64,000 nucleotides of DNA from Bolinopsis microptera. Its lineage: Eukaryota; Ctenophora; Tentaculata; Lobata; Bolinopsidae. Shown here piece by piece: positions 20,801 to 34,300 of the stretch; within the stretch, counting starts at the first letter, position 1, and each line of letters begins with the position of its first letter. The stretch spans positions 21,694,828-21,758,827 of the forward strand of contig NC_087076.1 of NCBI RefSeq assembly GCF_026151205.1. Reading direction: 5' to 3'. The notes under the pieces are model-generated. The model did no database searches. It was given only the letters and a program-made list of their open reading frames with translations, and was not told where the DNA came from. Both the position numbers and the translations under genes were made by a program.

Positions 20801-23800
20801 AGATGTGCTTCTTATTGCTATAATTCTTCCTCGTCAGTTCTCATCTGCTAGTATGTTGATTTAAAGAGTTGGGGGTTTTGTTTAGGACCATTGGGGGCTT
20901 TGAGAAATATTTAAAGTTGTCATTTTGCTAGGGCCCAAATAGTCCTGAAATGAAGGGCTCGTGTTTGGTTCCATGCAGTCAGAGGTAAATTATGCATTTT
21001 GAGTCCTGAAATGCACCAAACGCTCCTTTAGATATGATGTTGATAGAATTAAGTTGACAATCAATAGTAAAAAATTAATTGCAGAATGTGATAACAAGGC
21101 AACTTGTACAAATAAAGTTAAAAAGAAAGTATGGTCCCGGGTCCGAAAAATGCTCCCAAAATATGCATTCAATCAATGATCATCTTTAAAACAGCTCAGT
21201 AAATATAGTATATACCCTTCCATTATGTCTGTATACACTCAATGGTTTAAGACTTCAGTCAATTTAAAGTATGAACTCTAGCTCTTGTACGGGTTCCAGT
21301 GCCTTTAAGTCCTTGGAGGATGAGGATGATGAGGAGGCAGAAAAGGATGAGGAGGAAACGGAGGATATTTAGGGAAATGGTTAACGCTTTCAGGCAGTGA
21401 GCTTCAATTGGGCTCCGCCCACCTATATTATACTTAGTGTATATCATATTATGTAGTATACGTACGTAATGTTAGACTAAATTTGTGTCACTAACGAGAT
21501 AAGGCACAGGGATACCATCATTGTTGAAACGTGGTACATCCGGAGATGAATTATACTAAACGATAAAATACATAGTTCTTTCGAAAAACAAACCTTGAAC
21601 AGACTCCTTATAATAATGTATTGATCGTGAATATAGGGTCAGTTTCTGGTAATTGGAAAGCCAATTAGTGCAGAGGGTGTAAACTGTAATTGGGCTGATT
21701 GGTGTCCTTAATGGTGTGATATCTGTGTCTCCTATATCCTAATTACCCCCCTCCTTTCCCCTAATTAGGATGTGCGAGACGTTTTTTTATAAGCAGGCGG
21801 ATCAAAAGAAATGGCAGATTCATAATACTTGAGTGGTAGGGGAAGAAAAGGATTTTTCTTATTATAAGTGATTATTGATCAATATCGTAGTGCCAAGTCG
21901 AACAATCGATTGTATAAAGCGGATCAAATGGAATGAAAAATTGGGATTAAAAGGCAGATTTCCAATACTTGAGTGGTGGGAATTTCATATTATATAAAGA
22001 TCAAGCTGCTACTAAGTTAGTAAGTTGTCAGAGGCCACGATCGTCAGGACATGAAGTCAAGCAAATGATAGATTCAGTGCTGTGTAGTATTTATCAAGTC
22101 ATGGGTGCAGTAATTATTCGGCATGCGCAACACAAGCGGTGGAAACTGCAATATTATGTATGATATATCATAAATATACATAAATACATAATCACTGAGT
22201 AACGATGATCACCTTACGTTATTAACTAGTAAATATCAATTAGTGACCGTCACCTAGAAACTATCACTTAGTAACCGTGACCTAGTAACCGTCACCTAGT
22301 AACTATCACCTAGTAGTAACCGTCACCTAGTAACCATCACCTAGTAACTGTCACCTAGTAACTATCACTTAGTAACCGTCTCCTAGTAACTATCACCTAG
22401 TAATCGTCACCTAGTAACTATCACCTAGTAACCGTCACCTAGTAACTATCACTTAATAACCGTCACCTAGTAACTATCACCTAGTAGTAACCGTAACCTA
22501 GTAACTATCACCTAGTAACCGTCACCTAGTAACTATCACCTAGTAACCGTCACCTAGTAATGCTACTCTTCCTTGCAGGCACATCTCCGGAAGAAAACTC
22601 TCTCCTGTACACAATGTCACCTCCTCTTCGCCACCTTCCCTGAACTTGACTCACACTTTCACAGAATACACAGAAAGAGAAGTTCACCCACTTCAGAGAC
22701 CCCCACTATCCGACCTGTAGCGTTCAGCTGCGATAACATGTCTCTTAATAAGACTGATAACAGAACTGATAAGAAAGCCAATGAGAAAACAGATGGGGAG
22801 AGTGCCGCCAAGTCTTTAACTAAATCAACCAAGTGTTCAGTTGAGAAGAAAACAAATCCTCCTGATCTACAAGTAATTTTGAGATTTGTTATGATCTGCA
22901 TATTTTACTCATGATCTGCATATTTTACTCATGATCTGCATATTTTATTCATGATCTGCATATTTTATTCATGATCTGCATATTTTATTCATGATCTGCA
23001 TATTTTATTCATGATCTGCATATTTTATTCATGATCTGAATATTTCATTCATGATCTGCATATTTTACTCGTGATCTGCATATTTTACTCATGATATTGA
23101 ATGTTCATCATTACTTACTTTAGGTTACTTTAGGTAGGTTCGGCAGGGATCGCTTCTGGACAACAGTATCAAGTACGTCCTCCAATCACTCCTGGCTTAG
23201 ATCTTTTTGTAGAGTCCATTCCAGAAGAGAATTATTTGTGATGGCGGTATACCCTTTTGTGGGCGGGGTGTCCGGGAAGCCTTTCAGGAATTTAGCAAGG
23301 GAGGATTTGAAAGTTTCCAAGACTTGGATTGTGTTAACTTCCTTGGGGAGCAGGTTCCATAGTTTGGCTGCTTTTACTCCAAAAGAGTTTTCATAATGGG
23401 TCGAGATTGAGCATTGTGCCTTTTTGTTAAATGCAGGCACAGTGGCCTTTACACCGTGTCGGGAGCTTTCCTTGAACTGCATGTTGATGTCGTTCGGAGC
23501 TAGTCCATTCATCATCTTCCATGTATGGATAATGATGTATCGTTCTCTGCGTCTCTGTAATGAGAGAAGATTCAGGTTCTGCAGGCGTTCCCAGTAATCA
23601 AGGTTCTGGCAGCCACTGATTCGACGAGTGTAGTGTCGTTGGATGCTTTCAATAGCTTCTATATCGCTGATCTTGTCAGGGTTCCACACCGGGCAGCAGT
23701 ATTCGAGTTTGCTTCTCACCATGGTTTTGTAGAGTGTGAGCATGAGGAAGCGTGACCTATCTCTGAATACGCTAAGGACCCATGACGTCATCGTCCTTGC

Positions 23801-25352: not shown

Positions 25353-28300
25353 ATGGACACTGGAAGTGAATTGGTAGTGAGGAGGATTAATACAGGAACT
25401 AAATACAGGGTATGATGTTCTTTGAGATTGTAATGTAAAACTGAAAGTACGCTTTCTTCTGAATAACCTTACTTTAATTTGGTCAAGTATCCAGATCAAT
25501 GGCCTCTTGATACAATGGCACCATTGTTTTTGTTTTGGATTTCCATTTTCCTCCCAATCTCATTGTCCTTCAACAATCTACTAAATAATAATGTTCAACA
25601 TCCATGGGTGCGTGTGTCATTTACAAAACGCTTAATCAACAGTAAGAGTTATGGGACTGGTTTGTTCGGCATAAAAATCCTGATATTTTTGTTGACTGAC
25701 CCTGTAAAAATAATTCTCCCAATATTTCAGGATTTCTACTCGTGGCCGGATGAAGAGCTAGATGAGATGGAGAGTACACTGGCTATCCAGCAATTCATCC
25801 AGCAGAAGATACGACGAGACTTTACTGATATCGAGGGGATATTGGAACTGCCCCTGAAAGTGGATGTTAATGTTTGGAACTACGAGCACCTCAGGTATTA
25901 TACTCCATCATTGGACTCAAGTGTTGGCAAATGTAGCCGAAAAATCCATATAATATATAGACTTTATTTCTTGAAATTTATCAATCTTCTTTAATGTTGC
26001 CACCCGAACAAAGCACATGTATCTGTCACGTGATATATACTATACATATGTCACGTGATATCTACTATACATATGTCACTTGATATCTACTATACAGTCT
26101 CCCCCAGGCAGTTTTGTATGCAGCTTAATGAGCTGTGTGTGATGTTACAACCAGTTTGTAACTCCGAGACTTGTTCCCAGATGACTGCCACTGCTAGCTG
26201 GATCTTCCTTTGTGCCGTGAGTTGTTTTTTAGTACTGTTATTTGTAAGTACTTTGTTAGTACTGTGATTTGTAAGTACTTTGTTAGTTCTGTAATTTGTT
26301 AGTACTTTGTTAGTACTGTAATTTGTTAGTACTTTGTTACACATACTGTATATATAATATATATAAACAAAAGCTCTAAGAAACAGATAGTAAACAAAGT
26401 AAACATTTCTGTCCCCTAATCTTTCTCAAACAAAAGTCATGCAATCTGCATACTTCTCCATTTAACTCTATTCTGAGCAATTAACGTTAAATAGTTCAAA
26501 TCACATAAATTATTTAACGATAATTTTCGGACACTAAGGTCGTGTAGAATCAGTGAGAAAAGGTTTGACTGCGGTCTTCCACGCCACCCTTGAAGCTGTA
26601 AGGTGTTGACAGCAAAAACAAGCGACGAATAGGCTGGGCCATCTGTAGGCCCCCGCAGTACATGTCCGAGCATCCTCCACCGACTACGAGCCACTTTAGC
26701 TGACAATGGTTCGCTATTGCAGCGTTTATACAAGTTCTTGTTGGAGATGATGTGAGGGTATTTGTAATTCAAAATTGATCGCAGATGACGTCTGTGAGCA
26801 ATATCTAGTTTTTCCAATACTGATTTAGGGGGAAGTTGGTCGTTTACCACCTGACAGTCTATGCAACGTCTATGCAACGTCCGTGCAACAACAAAAGAAC
26901 CGTCTATGCAACGTCTATGCAACGTCCCTGCACAATGAACACTCTATGCACACTCCCTGCACGGTCAGTCTATGCAACGTCTATGCAACGTCTATGCAAC
27001 GTCTATGCAACGTCCCTGCACAGTACCATATGAACACCGGCTACTAGCCGGCTACTAACCGGCTAGTAGCCACTTTTGTAATAACAGCTCCTCAACTTCA
27101 CATTAACAACCGGCTACTAACCGGCACTTGAAAAGTGGTCACTAGCCGGCTACTAACCGGCTACTAGCCGGCTAGTGACCACAAAGTGGCTACTAACCGG
27201 CTACTAAGCGGTCACTAGCCGGCTATTAGCCGAGCTCTAAAGCAGACCTACTAGTAGCCGGTTCCAAACCGGCTACTAGCCGGCACTTAGAAAGTGGTCA
27301 CTAGCCGGCTACTAACCGGCTACTAACCGGCTAGTAACCACCAAGTGGCTACTAACCGGCTACTAACCGGTCACTAGCCGGCTCTTAAGCGGACCTACTA
27401 GTAGCCGGTTCCAAACCGGCTACTAGCCGGCACTTAGAAAGCGGTCACTAGCCGGCTACTAACCGGCTACTAACCGGCTAGTAACCACCAAGTGGCTACT
27501 AACCGGCTACTAACCGGTCACTAGCCGGCTCTTAAGCGGACCTACTAGCCGGCACTCGAAAAGCGGTCGCTAGCCGGCTACTAACCGGCTACTAACCGGC
27601 TAGTAACCACCAAGTGGCTACTAACCGGTCACTAGCCGGCTCTAAAGCGGACCTTCTAGTTCCAAACCGGCTACTAGCCGACACTTGAAAAGCGGTCACT
27701 AGCCGGCTGGTGGGTACTAGCTGGTTAGTAGACGGCTACTAACCGGCTAGTACTAACCTGCTCTAGGCGACTCTAAATCAGACCGGCTATAATTCATTAT
27801 TGCCAAATAAACAAATTATTTGAAACAAATTATTTGAAACTTGTTATTTGAAACTTGTTATTTGAAACAAATTATTCAATGAAACTAATAAATCAATGAA
27901 ACTAATAAATCAATGTTTTAGCTCATTTTACAAAGTCAAATATTTAAAACAATTAAAATTGTATAGTGCTCAATTTGTAAATGACTAGTTGATCTTTGCT
28001 ATTGGAAGTTTGTCAAGGACTGGCAGCTAGCGGGGCAAGGAATGCACGGGCTTAGGGGCTTTTGTGCACACCAGAACACTAGCTCGGTAGATTTTTGGAA
28101 ACTAGAAGGACTGAAAACTAAAATTGTTTTTGATGGAGGCTGAGGCATGTTTTTGAGAGGGACGGTATAATAGCTTGTGGTAACAACTGGCCTTTACTTT
28201 AATAGGATTAAGTTTTAGTTTTAGGACAGGAAGAAGGCATTAAGAAGATTTGCTCTTTGTTTACAAGGCAGAATATAAGCAATGTTGGTTATAATATGTA

Positions 28301-31300
28301 TCAATATCTAGATCTTCGTTTATCAATTTTCACTAAATGGGTTTAAAATTTTAATAGGGAGGGAAATTCATCAACTTTATTAAGTACCTATCAAAAATAA
28401 ATCTTATATCAATGTAATATATTAAAAATCATAATCCTAAGTCTAATAATAAATCTGTTAAAAACACTTTCTCACCACACTGCGCTCACACACGTTAGTA
28501 AGACAAAAGAAAATGCACACCCAGCTTATTTTCAATTTCAAGATAATCATTTTGGATGTGTGGACCCTAGGGTAGACTTAATGTCAAAATTTAGATTAGA
28601 GCATTCGAAATCTTTGTTTGTCCAATCAAGATCAGCATGGTTATGCTGGTTGACGAGCAGTGATTGCTTCATCCTAGACTTCAGGCAGGCCACACTTAGA
28701 CAGTAGTCACGTATACCAAGCTTAGGCACAATTACGTTCCAAATACGAGTCGTTCTGCTATTGAAGTTGTCAGGGGGGTCTGCTTGGCTTAGTATAAGGG
28801 TGGGTTTCCTACTTGAGCAGGTGAAATTTTCATGGAGGGAAATCGGAGCACGGAATTTCATGATTTTATAGAGTTCAAGGAAACAATGGTAAGTGTACAG
28901 GTTTTGGACGGCAAGTATTCCGTGTTCCTTGAACAAAGGTTTCGTGTGCTCTTTCAAGAAAAATTTTTTGTTCAGATTTTGGTTGCCAAACGGTCGAGCA
29001 CGAGCACAGGTCTTAAATCTATCTAGGTATGCCTCCCTGTCGCCAAACAGTACCCTGAGACAATATTTTTGTGCTTTGAATACAGAACTTATACGAGTTT
29101 TGGCTGCCCCACCCCAAACCGTGATACAATAGGAGAGGTGTGATTCAAATAGAGTGTAATACAACTGGCGGTGTAAGAAATCTGGGAGGGAGCAGCGTAG
29201 GCGGCAGAGAGTTGATGTTGCATGGCTGAGAGAACGCCTAAGTGATTTTATATGTTCTTCCCAGGTTAGCTTTTCATCGATGACGACTCCCAGAAACTTA
29301 GCAGATGCAACTTGTTTTATTGGAAAGTTATCAATGGTTAGAGTATATTCAGAATTATTGTCAGTCTGGGAGGACGATGCTGGTTTAAAGTGGATGAAAC
29401 AGCATTTAGACAAGTTGACATGGAGTTTGTTTGCTCGCATGTAGGAATATAAACTAGCTAAAAGAGAATTACCACGCATATATGCCTCCTTTTTAGATTT
29501 CCCAGTCACAAATATATTGGTGTCATCAGCGAAGGTGACAAATGATCCCAAACTGGAGCTGTTGGCGATATCATTAATATATAGGAGAAATAAGAGAGGT
29601 CCAAGAATCGAACCCTGAGGGACTCCAAACTGTATTTTCAAGGCGTCAGATTTCTCACCAACAACTTCAGTATATTGTGATCTATTTGTTAAGTAACTTT
29701 TTATAAGATCATTTGCCACCCCACGTATCACATAGCCCTGTAATTTGACGAGTAATGTACCATGATCTATTGTATCAAAAGCTTTGCTAAGGTCTATGAA
29801 TATGCCTAAGACATGATGCTTAAGTTTTAGAGATTATTTTAATTTTATTATTATTAATTATTAAAATGAATTATTTGAAACAAGTTATTTGAAACACGTT
29901 ATTTGAAAGTAAGTTCCAAAATCGATTACAACATTTTTATGAAAAATAAAAAAATACTGAAAACTGATTACATTCAATTTCTTCGTGGTGGAGGAGCAGT
30001 GTAATTGTTTTTGGGCGCTAGGACGACGCCTTGGGTACAAAGGGTCCTAAGAGTGGCAAGATTACGGTTGCAGATCTCGTTTGCGAAGGTGTAAACACTA
30101 GGAAGTCTGACGTCTCGTAGTTGCAGCAGTGCGTGTTGGACACCTGGTAGGTCAACTTTTGCTGCTTCAGCGATACATCGCTTTCTTGAGAAGTGACTCC
30201 GAGAAATGTGTATCTGCTCCAGAGCGGCAGACTTTGAGAGACCAGAGTTGACTAGCTAGTGCCGGCTAGTAGCCGGTTTGGAACCGGCTACTAGTAGGTC
30301 TGCTTTAGAGCTCGGCTAATAGCCGGCTAGTGACCGGTTAGTAGCCGGTTAGTAGCCACTTGGTGGTTACTAGCCGGTTAGTAGCCGGTTAGTAGCCGGC
30401 GAGTGACCGCTTTTCAAGTGCCGGCTAGTAGCCGGTTTAGAACCGGCTACTAATAGGTCTGCTTTAGAGCCGGCTAGTGACCGGTTAGTAGCCGGTTAGT
30501 AGCCACTTGGTGGTTACTAGCCGGTTAGTAGCCGGTTAGTAGCCGGCTAGTGACCGCTTTCTAAGTGCCGGCTAGTAGCCGGTTTGGAACCGGCTACTAG
30601 TAGGTCTGCTTTAGAGCTCGGCTAATAGCCGGCTAGTGACCGCTTGGTAGCCGGTTAGTAGCCACTTTGTGGTCACTAGCCGGCTAGTAGCCGGTTAGTA
30701 GCCGGCTAGTGACCACTTTTCAAGTGCCGGTTAGTAGCCGGTTGTTAATGTGAAGTTGAGGAGCTGTTATTACAAAAGTGGCTACTAGCCGGCTAGTAGC
30801 CGGCTAGTAGCCGGTGTTCATATGGTACTGTGCAGGGACGTTGCATAGACGTTGCATAGACGTTGCATAGACGTTGCATAGACGTTGCATAGACTGACCG
30901 TGCAGGGAGTGTGCATAGAGTGTTCATTGTGCAGGGACGTTGCATAGACGTTGCATAGACGGTTCTTTTGTTGTTGCACGGACGTTGCATAGACGTTGCA
31001 TAGACTGTCCGGAGGTAAACGACCAAGTTGCCGATTTAGGGGCAGCCCAGCAAGATGAATTGTACATTAAAACGGATACTACCAGAGCCTCATACAACAG
31101 AAGCCTCTTGCTCAGAGGGATCTTATGGTTCCAAGCTTTCTTGTATTTGTTAAACGCGGCATATCCCAGACATATCCTTCTAGAGATGTCCTCCTTGCTA
31201 CAAAGCATGGAGCCAAGCGTGATACTCTTTCTCCAGAGCTCGTTCCCTGCAATTGGCTTACCCTGATCGTCTTTAGCTCCCTTTTCAGCTAAGTACACAT

Positions 31301-34300
31301 GAGTGAAATCAGTTTTGTCTTCGTTAACGAAGAGATTCCAATCTTTAAGGACTTCTGTTGCAATAGGCAACAGCTCCCTCAAATTGTCTTCATCTTCATC
31401 ATTGAAGTCGATATCATCAGCATACTCACTGTCAAGTGGAAGACCAATATCGGTGATAGGTGGGTTAGGCCTATTCGTTGCAGTTTCAAGCCTGTTACGG
31501 AGGTCACGCAAGGCACCCGCTAAGACAAGTGTGAACAAGCATCCAGACAGACAGTCACCTTGGAATGCACCGAGAAAACTCTGGAATTCAGCAGACAGTG
31601 TACCGTTGATGTTGACTTTGAGCTTGGTGTTGGAAAGCAAAAGTCTTACCAAACGGACTTCGTCATCATCACAGCCACACTCAACAAGAAGATCGAGGAT
31701 GGTAGATCGTCGTATAGTGTCAAAGGCACTAGACATGTCGATCCCCATACGATGGTATTCCCACCTCTTCCTCTGGACAACTGATAACATCACACGCTGG
31801 CACCATACAATGTCAGCACATGATCTACCCTGCTTGTAAGCACATTGCCATGGACCAGTGAAGGCATTGACTTTATTCTCAATTCTCTTCAAGGTTGCCA
31901 TTGAAAGAATCTTTCTAACAGCATTTGAGAGAGTGAGGGGTCGTAGATTCTTCACTGGACCAATGGGCTTATTTGGCTTCTGTAAGGGGGTAATGTTTGC
32001 CTGTCCAATGGGGTCAAGGTAGGAATTGGTCTCAAAGCTTCTATTGATAATGTCTGCAAAACGTCTGTGTACTGATCCAGTAGAATACTTGAGAAGCTCA
32101 TTAGGAATCCCATCTGGGCCGTTAGCTCGACCATTTTTGAGACTTCTAGCAGCTGATCCGATTTCTTCACTAGTGAATGGCTTAACTAGTGGGCGAGGAG
32201 GTCCTAAAAAAGGTTCTAAAGGTGCTTCATCACGAGTAAGTTGTTGCTCAAGGTACTTAGCAACTACGGCAGCTTTACCAGTGTCTGTTGCAATATTGCA
32301 CCCTTGCTCATCATGAACACCAATACAAGAAGGGGCTTTAGGTAAGTTCAGGGTTCGAACAGCTTCAAACATTTTCTTACTATCTGTTGTTGAACTGATG
32401 GTATTACAGATAGCATCAGCAGCAGCTGATCGTATGTTAGAAAGTCTCTGCTTGATCTGATTGGTGAGGCAGTTAATAGATGATCTAAGTGAGGTTCTGT
32501 CTAAAGACTGGTTATCATTAAGCTGCTGTCTCAACAAGTAACGCTGGCTAGATAAGTTTTTCACCTCATCATCGTCACTGCGATTACGTTTCCTGTGTCT
32601 GATGACACCAATTGACGATTTTGCAGCATCCTTTATGGACTCAAGTAAGCCATTCAAGTCTGAATTTGGATCCAGAGCAGAAACAGTGTTACTTAAGTTA
32701 TCATCTAAGGATTGACGATATTTCACCTGAATGGTGGGGTTCGAGGTGAGTTCAGAGGTGTTGAACTTTAAGGATGACTTGGAGTGGCGTTTATAGCAAA
32801 GACAGATGTCCTTAAAGTCTACTCTAGTGACAACAAATCTGTGATCAGAGTATGTCAAGGTGCCTGCATAAGATCTAGAATCTTGTAGCATTGGCTTCGA
32901 CCTACTTCGACACAGGATGAAATCGATCTGAGAATAGACCGGGATCGTCTTTTTACTATTTCGCCCGGCACTCCAGTCCTTCCTCCAGCCAGTGTAGGTG
33001 GTCGTATGTCGAGCAGGATGATAAAAACCAGTGTTGGAGGCAAAGAGGTCAAATTCTGATAACAAGTCTAACAAGTTTTCTCCCATATCGTTGCGCAAAC
33101 CCATACCATGTTTACCCATGAAACGACCAAAACCAAAGTCCTTATCTGAAGCAGTCATTTTTCCCAACTTTGAATTAAAATCCCCCAAAAGAAATATCTC
33201 AACATTAGCAGGGACGTTTAGAGCATCCCTAACTTGGCCGTAAAAATTAATCAACAGTTGTTGATCATTATCTGCAAGTTTCTTGTGTGGCCCATATACA
33301 TTGACCACCCTACATTTGATAAATTTTCCAGATTTTGTAGGGAGTTCTAGGTCCAAAAAGCTTACTCGATCACTGATACTGTTCCAGCATACCACAGAGT
33401 CAATAAATCGGGGACTGATAACAAAACCGAGTCCATAGTGCCGGCCATTTTTCTGCTCAAACAATAATAGTTTGTATCCGTTGCTAAGACTGCAAGAATC
33501 CGGTTTTACAACCTTAGTCTCCTGAATAGCGCAGATATCTATGCCGTACCGTAGACAATCGGTACCCAGTTGCTCCCGTTTGCTGTGGATGTCGTCTGGA
33601 TCATCACAAGAACCGAGGCCACGTATGTTAAAGGTGGCGAAGCTGATGAGGAGTGTAGCAAACAGGGATCGTCCTGCAGCTGAGGTAAACATTACGGAGG
33701 GCGATGTTGTCGTCTCTCCGCCGCTGGCGTTACCCATACGGTCCATCTAAATACTGTATTATGTATGAAATTATTGGGCTGAACCAGCATACCACGCTTA
33801 CCATATTGGTACATGATAGACTGAAGAGTGTTGCATTTTGCGATTGGAACAAAGAGAATTAAAGGGATGAAAAGTAGATGTAGAAATAGTCGCACCGAAT
33901 CTACCAATGATATCCACTACATATTCACATCTACTACATATCCACTACATTACATATACTATTCTGTATCCACTACATTACATATACTATTCTGTAGCCA
34001 CTACATTACATCTACTATTCTGTATCCACATTCCACTGTATTACATCTACTATTCTGTATCCACTGCATTACATCTACTATTCTGAATCCACTACATTAC
34101 ATCTACTATTCTGTAGCCACTACATTACATCTACTATTCTCCCTGTATTCAGGTGCACAAAGAACCAAAGGAATGTTGTGCAATAGACTACATTAGACAT
34201 ACGTTGGACGGTGCTGCCAGCATACTGAACAGTAACAAATACTTTCCTAGCAGGTTAGCGGAGTCACCATTTCTTTGTTTACTATAATATTTTCCATCAT

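Follow-up and report, generated by a model that had tools for sequence, protein, structure and literature searches.

Three nested insertions in a MOB4 intron of the ctenophore Bolinopsis microptera include a putative Merlin-type foldback element

How did three transposable elements come to lie one inside another in a single intron, and to which group does the middle one belong? These questions are raised by a 64,000-nucleotide stretch of the Bolinopsis microptera genome (contig NC_087076.1, here C5:21694828-21758827; hereafter the window), where an intron of MOB4 (phocein) holds a long interspersed nuclear element (LINE; layer 1), a foldback element within it (layer 2) and a piece of a second LINE within the foldback (layer 3). 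Such nesting had been proposed in an initial annotation of the window and it is indeed present, with some edges corrected; three separate insertions at the MOB4 intron are confirmed. As a whole, the locus is very probably explained by a LINE that inserted antisense into the intron through target-primed reverse transcription, followed by a Merlin-related foldback that entered the LINE reading frame and made an 8-bp target duplication, with a second, 5'-truncated LINE entering an AT-rich repeat of the foldback by the same presumed route. The foldback would have moved in trans, by cut-and-paste, through the Merlin-type (IS1595) DDE transposase of its relatives. Nesting by young elements is in itself ordinary; the middle layer is worth following for its repeat arrays and its second gene.

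Layer 1 is a LINE of almost full length, antisense to MOB4 and flanked by the 9-bp duplication ATACTGTAT, with endonuclease (PF03372, 1.2e-07) and reverse transcriptase (PF00078, 2.1e-20) matches in its frame. It belongs to a high-copy, nearly identical family. Our genome searches covered the 264.65-Mb assembly (232 contigs), and the best 40 candidates of each LINE search were scored, so that copy counts are lower bounds. The 3' 432 bases recur at at least 39 other places with 97-100% identity; at least 24 of these 39 pieces adjoin a 5' piece, overlapping it by exactly 10 bases, and at least 37 matches of the 5' query start at the foldback junction. Candidate target duplications of 8-14 bp were found at seven of eight fetched siblings (none at L015), the 8-bp candidate at L009 being probably a chance match since its position falls inside the LINE end. 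At 33747-33750 the window copy has almost no 5' untranslated stretch, its start codon ending 4 bases from the element edge; this 5' edge is common to six of the eight siblings within a few bases.

Comparison with the siblings supports the order of the first two events. Alignment to other copies, as the initial annotation had proposed, shows all eight siblings continuous across the foldback site with one GATTTAGG; over the 41 bases around it seven are unchanged and one has a single mismatch. When the flanks of the window LINE are joined by script to restore the empty site, that is, with the foldback and one duplication copy removed, the LINE frame rejoins, as had been claimed, and runs for 1,032 codons; it is otherwise open. 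Four siblings (L009, L010, L012 and L016) have full-length open frames of 1,031-1,054 codons, of which two begin in the flanking DNA; the frames of the other four are broken. A search for the LINE-foldback junction that tolerated two mismatches met it at a single place in the genome. Uninterrupted siblings and a unique junction support the proposed succession, in which LINE insertion preceded that of the foldback. Recent arrival, also suggested earlier, fits the host LINE, whose 5' part is 99.0-99.4% identical to six siblings compared, and it likewise fits the inner LINE.

The foldback, 4,203 bp long, splits the LINE reading frame. It has long inverted arms that contain tandem repeats; complementarity between the arms is 96% over 600 bases and 95% over a further block of 198 bases. 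Its edges are set by relatives, which begin 5'-GGGAAGTTGGTCGTTTA at one end and 5'-GGCAACTTGGTCGTTTA at the other (loci fetched from the genome are cited by L numbers). The size of 4.2 kb given by the initial annotation stands, whereas its 10-bp duplication does not: comparison of copies places the edge at GGG/GGC and reduces the duplication to the 8 bp GATTTAGG. The longer repeat is only apparent because the target continues with GG and the foldback begins with GGG.

Ends were tested at 22 loci, the window and L017-L037, chosen among the best 40 of 264 candidates. Both ends were found at 18 of them, while L022, L034 and L036 have one end and L035 is compound. Every two-ended element combines one GGGAAG end with one GGCAAC end, both starting with GG as in Merlin elements; lengths range from 0.8 to 8.4 kb, and a perfect 8-bp duplication, within the 8-9 bp typical of Merlins, flanks 14 of the 18, the window copy included. 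The constant difference between the ends might mark left and right. A separate observation concerns contig C2, where two outer foldback ends 33.9 kb apart (L038:304 to L040:3988; C2:410103-443987) share the 8-bp duplication CATTATGT. A further end lies near 422.6 kb, perhaps reflecting two elements joined head to tail; this compound reading covers the interval except C2:416001-418499 and 425501-439999.

Layer 3 belongs to a different LINE family, found at at least 39 other places where the main piece is 99-100% identical, and it is 99.4-99.5% identical to L046 and L047. Its empty site, AAATTATTGAAATG, is readable in L017, L021 (the same place as L002), L038 and L039, while L001, L003 and L004 lack the stretch that would hold it; the window instead reads AAATTATT, LINE, filler, AATTATTAAAATG. 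The right edge is less certain because the duplication is 7 bp long, a mismatch lies nearby and 20 nt of filler intervene. We considered whether this LINE could be an ancestral part of the foldback and rejected it, as the left junction is unique in the genome (up to two mismatches) and four elements show the empty site. The unique junction fits entry either before or after the foldback landed, because a cut-and-paste element leaves no donor copy.

A full-length relative of layer 3 (L046:495-2588, plus strand) carries in its first frame an AlkB-like 2-oxoglutarate-Fe(II) (2OG-Fe(II)) oxygenase domain (PF13532, 1e-18), and the first frame of the family matches ALKBH8 3thp at 0.001. The frame shows an H-x-D...H...R-x5-R pattern and then a GDS...GTND stretch which we take to be like those of SGNH esterases. 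The whole 3,201-base L046 query is spanned at 99-100% by nine of the best 40 places, itself included. No LINE with an AlkB domain turned up in the literature searched; such a domain is known in orchid Gypsy elements, according to the accessible part of PMC9289625.

Could the entire arrangement be a misjoin of repeats made during assembly? All layers are multi-copy, which would invite such an error. Each of them, however, is bounded by exact ends and by a target duplication of its own, features that a misjoin would not create, and we regard an artefact as hardly credible.

What, then, is the middle element? The window copy has no transposase. In its terminal sequences, its arms and the length of its duplication it agrees with longer elements which do encode one, of the IS1595 type, and because relatives with its ends carry this gene, the window foldback is best read as a non-autonomous member of the Merlin superfamily. 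Between the same ends, L019 contains a 240-codon frame matching PF12762 (DDE_Tnp_IS1595, 2.9e-15), and L037 (4.85 kb, duplication CATAGTAG) has its transposase in a 250-codon frame. Of 13 aligned transposases, all have both D residues and 12 have the E, which L055 lacks. The transposase of foldback relatives has 104 genome matches at E<=1e-5, and PF12762 has 58, many of them from other families. Two other Merlin families possess similar ends (GGCAACTTG and GGTAACTCG), 8-bp duplications, arrays and a transposase; their transposases share 64% identity with one another and 65-68% with that of L037. At the edges tested, L049 has no duplication, and the element ends of L052 did not resolve.

Described foldbacks mostly seem to be Mutator elements, with Galileo (P superfamily) as an exception (PMC4079207, as far as its accessible text goes), and since the window copy itself lacks a transposase, it might be of Mutator or P/Galileo type, with the Merlin transposase of its relatives as a passenger. 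We listed the frames of six fetched relatives and scanned some of them against Pfam, with no search made for Mutator or P families. Against a passenger speak the 8-bp duplications and GG ends, which match Merlin as described in the accessible part of PMC8101967, and the two further Merlin families, where similar ends, 8-bp duplications and arrays again accompany a transposase. Such an origin is therefore improbable, and we keep to assignment of the foldback to Merlin.

Several observations weigh against our overall account. Within the window's own family, none of the fetched elements carries complete copies of both genes: the second gene is present in L017, which has no transposase match, and the transposase frames of L019 and L037 are without an N-terminal part that is present in L044. 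Four of the 18 two-ended elements (L028, L029, L030 and L032) show no matching 8-bp duplication. Layer 3 has filler and one mismatch beside its right 7-bp duplication. Finally, we infer the movement of the foldback in trans rather than observe it.

Besides the transposase, this Merlin lineage possesses a second gene, of which the window keeps the end. In L017 it spans 401 codons from stop to stop, and its product has a zinc knuckle of the form CX2CX4HX4C, a CxxC pair and a proline-rich repeat, and ends in a conserved stretch. The gene is found in three of four related families, those of the two other families being 44-53% identical in two conserved blocks. Both genes are open in L048 and L049 (transposase 318 codons; second gene 356 and 432 codons, respectively). 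They are divergent in the two other Merlin families and run in the same direction in L018, L021, L037 and L041, which have the window's ends. In L052, no second-gene block was matched at E 1e-3 and no zinc-knuckle frame was seen.

Substitution patterns indicate that the second gene is under purifying selection in three families. Between L017 and L056 (108 codons) the synonymous rate (dS) is 0.48 and the nonsynonymous rate (dN) 0.10, a ratio of 0.21. In pairs between families dS is saturated in about half, and most differences fall at third positions; close pairs, with few changes, give less clear ratios (L051-L059 0.49, L057-L060 0.67, L060-L061 0.35). The gene also keeps company with the transposase. 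Its 94 end-block matches group into 78 clusters, and 26 of these have a transposase match within 6 kb; in 1,000 random placements the number of such clusters averaged 0.35 and never exceeded 3. The remaining 52 clusters have no transposase match within that distance, and a second gene is near in 25 of 86 transposase clusters. Twenty-two of the 94 matches are crowded into 0.6 Mb (C6:15.35-15.95 Mb), which would fit local hopping or duplication.

Pfam searches with ten members matched CCDC106 in five (best 0.0044), helix-turn-helix (HTH) family HTH_7 in two (best 0.0013) and RNA_pol_N in one. On this basis, an HTH-like end of the second protein is only a suggestion. A structure of the end piece in the window, folded without alignment, had a mean predicted local distance difference test score (pLDDT) of 45.8 and was not used. 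Thirteen pattern matches to the second-gene block in viral contigs included none confirmed as relatives. In L056:1-6195 (plus strand) the proline-rich repeat has expanded to some 2,000 codons within a single open frame, which continues past the end of the fetched stretch.

Arms of all four families tested share an 11-bp period. Among lags 4-40, lag 11 was best everywhere, with scores of 0.56 and 0.59 in the window, 0.45 in L050, 0.48 in L051, 0.62 and 0.69 in L048, and 0.75 and 0.72 in L052; the highest of 300 shuffles reached 0.32-0.44. The units are GTCTATGCAAC and CCGGCTACTAR in the window, GCACACCTCGG in L050/L051, ACATTAAGACA in L048 and ACCGGTTAAGA in L052. They mostly differ between families while the period stays constant. 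In the distant Merlins L053-L055, lag 15 scores 0.41-0.70 and lag 11 only 0.13-0.21; only one of the four stretches has its best lag at 15, the rest peaking at 30 or 36, and at lag 15 L054 scores no higher than its shuffles. A quick tree joins L052 on the branch to these distant Merlins with support of 0.90.

Such arrays may be protein-binding, offering multiple sites in each arm. Since L052 has arrays and no detectable second gene, arrays can exist independently of the second protein, and the transposase would be their likelier reader; binding by the second protein is our guess. Extending this, one can imagine a two-component Merlin lineage whose ends are no longer recognised through a short terminal repeat. 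Long arrays with units phased at 11 bp, roughly a helical turn, would have taken over that role, and the transposase would read them together with a dedicated second protein that has a zinc knuckle, a proline stretch and an HTH-like end; the unit would drift between families while the period is preserved. We consider this scheme rather unlikely as it stands; if true, two-component array Merlins would be a foldback origin separate from Mutator and P. A period of 11 bp, moreover, is only near a helical turn. Slippage inherited from one ancestral array, devoid of any binding function, is a serious possibility, though not a probable one. The four array families are related and could have inherited the period, CCGG is common to the window and L052 units, and minisatellites expand readily, as the repeat stretch of the second gene in L056 illustrates. 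Yet the units of two families have no evident likeness to the others and still keep the period of 11, which is rare elsewhere in the window (one of 43 tandem-repeat rows).

Identity of the host gene follows from its exons (Table 1). Both exons flanking the intron match Mob1_phocein (1.5e-05 and 1.8e-05, each slightly below the curated cut-off), and three joined MOB4 exons match the human-type phocein 7k36 at 8.8e-56. Two more tandem arrays lie near the locus, at 22241-22560 (periods 14/28) and at 33911-34140 (period 28), the latter within the same intron as the nested elements.

Table 1. Positions in the window of the MOB4 intron, the nested elements and their parts
Feature	Position	Strand	Basis
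MOB4 (phocein) intron enclosing all three layers	26217..34152	+	GT/AG splice signals; flanking exons
Layer 1 LINE, endonuclease and reverse transcriptase in one frame, interrupted by 26830-31040	26352..33750	-	genome copies, Pfam, duplication, siblings
Layer 1 target duplication ATACTGTAT, left copy	26343..26351	.	flank comparison
Layer 1 target duplication ATACTGTAT, right copy	33751..33759	.	flank comparison
Layer 2, putative non-autonomous foldback element of Merlin type	26830..31032	.	arm self-match, relatives' edges
Foldback target duplication GATTTAGG, left copy	26822..26829	.	sibling and relative comparison
Foldback target duplication GATTTAGG, right copy	31033..31040	.	sibling and relative comparison
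Left arm, begins GGGAAGTTGG, built of 11-bp units	about 26830..27783	.	repeat and copy comparison
Right arm, reverse complement begins GGCAACTTGG	about 30258..31032	.	arm and copy comparison
3' end (93 codons) of the second gene in this Merlin lineage	29974..30255	-	ORF (open reading frame) comparison with relatives
Layer 3, 5'-truncated LINE, end of second frame (reverse transcriptase)	27877..29835	-	genome copies, Pfam, empty sites
Layer 3 duplication AATTATT, left copy	27870..27876	.	empty-site comparison
AT-rich filler, 20 nt, at layer 3 5' junction	29836..29855	.	empty-site comparison
Layer 3 duplication AATTATT, right copy	29856..29862	.	empty-site comparison

Foldbacks are often orphans, whose superfamily is judged from nothing but the length of the duplication. 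In this genome the transposase, the second gene, the ends and numerous copies are available together, and related families that keep one period with different units make the role of long repeated arms testable. At the nested locus, in turn, the relative order of events reads clearly, and two of the insertions have exact empty sites. Judged from sequence, what appears new is a Merlin with foldback arms and a second gene; the superfamily itself is known. No foldback or two-gene Merlin was met in the literature searched, which is weak evidence of absence as most subscription journals and Repbase lie outside its coverage; neither 'foldback' nor 'second ORF' appears as a term in the available parts of PMC8101967.

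How do the three layers compare with known systems? Layers 1 and 3 resemble other non-long-terminal-repeat retrotransposons in having a reverse transcriptase and insertion with a target duplication, joined in layer 1 by an endonuclease and in layer 3 by 5' truncation, and by repeat tails in the LINEs compared. The family of layer 3 differs from them by the AlkB-like oxygenase domain in its first frame. PIF/Harbinger elements are two-gene DNA transposons, encoding a transposase and a separate putative DNA-binding protein. The lineage described here has the same arrangement; its transposase, however, is unrelated to theirs, and its second protein has a zinc knuckle, a proline stretch and weak HTH/CCDC106 likeness.

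The foldbacks Galileo, for which footprints and electrophoretic mobility shift assays (EMSA) located transposase sites in the arm repeats (accessible part of PMC3688188), and Tetris, assigned to Mutator by its authors (accessible part of PMC4079207), likewise have long inverted arms, internal tandem repeats and many copies devoid of transposase. Unlike them, the elements studied here have relatives with an IS1595/Merlin-type transposase, an 11-bp unit and two distinguishable ends. Merlins, as far as the accessible part of PMC8101967 describes them, have terminal inverted repeats (TIRs) of 24-462 bp, GG ends and 8-9-bp duplications; tandem repeats inside them are already recorded, also in several Repbase families, and Merlin matches are reported in three ctenophores. 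Shared with that superfamily are the DDE_Tnp_IS1595 domain (in relatives), 5'-GG ends, 8-bp duplications and internal tandem repeats. The arms of 775-954 bp, in contrast, exceed the reported TIRs, and they are built of 11-bp units in a lineage whose second gene is under selection in three families.

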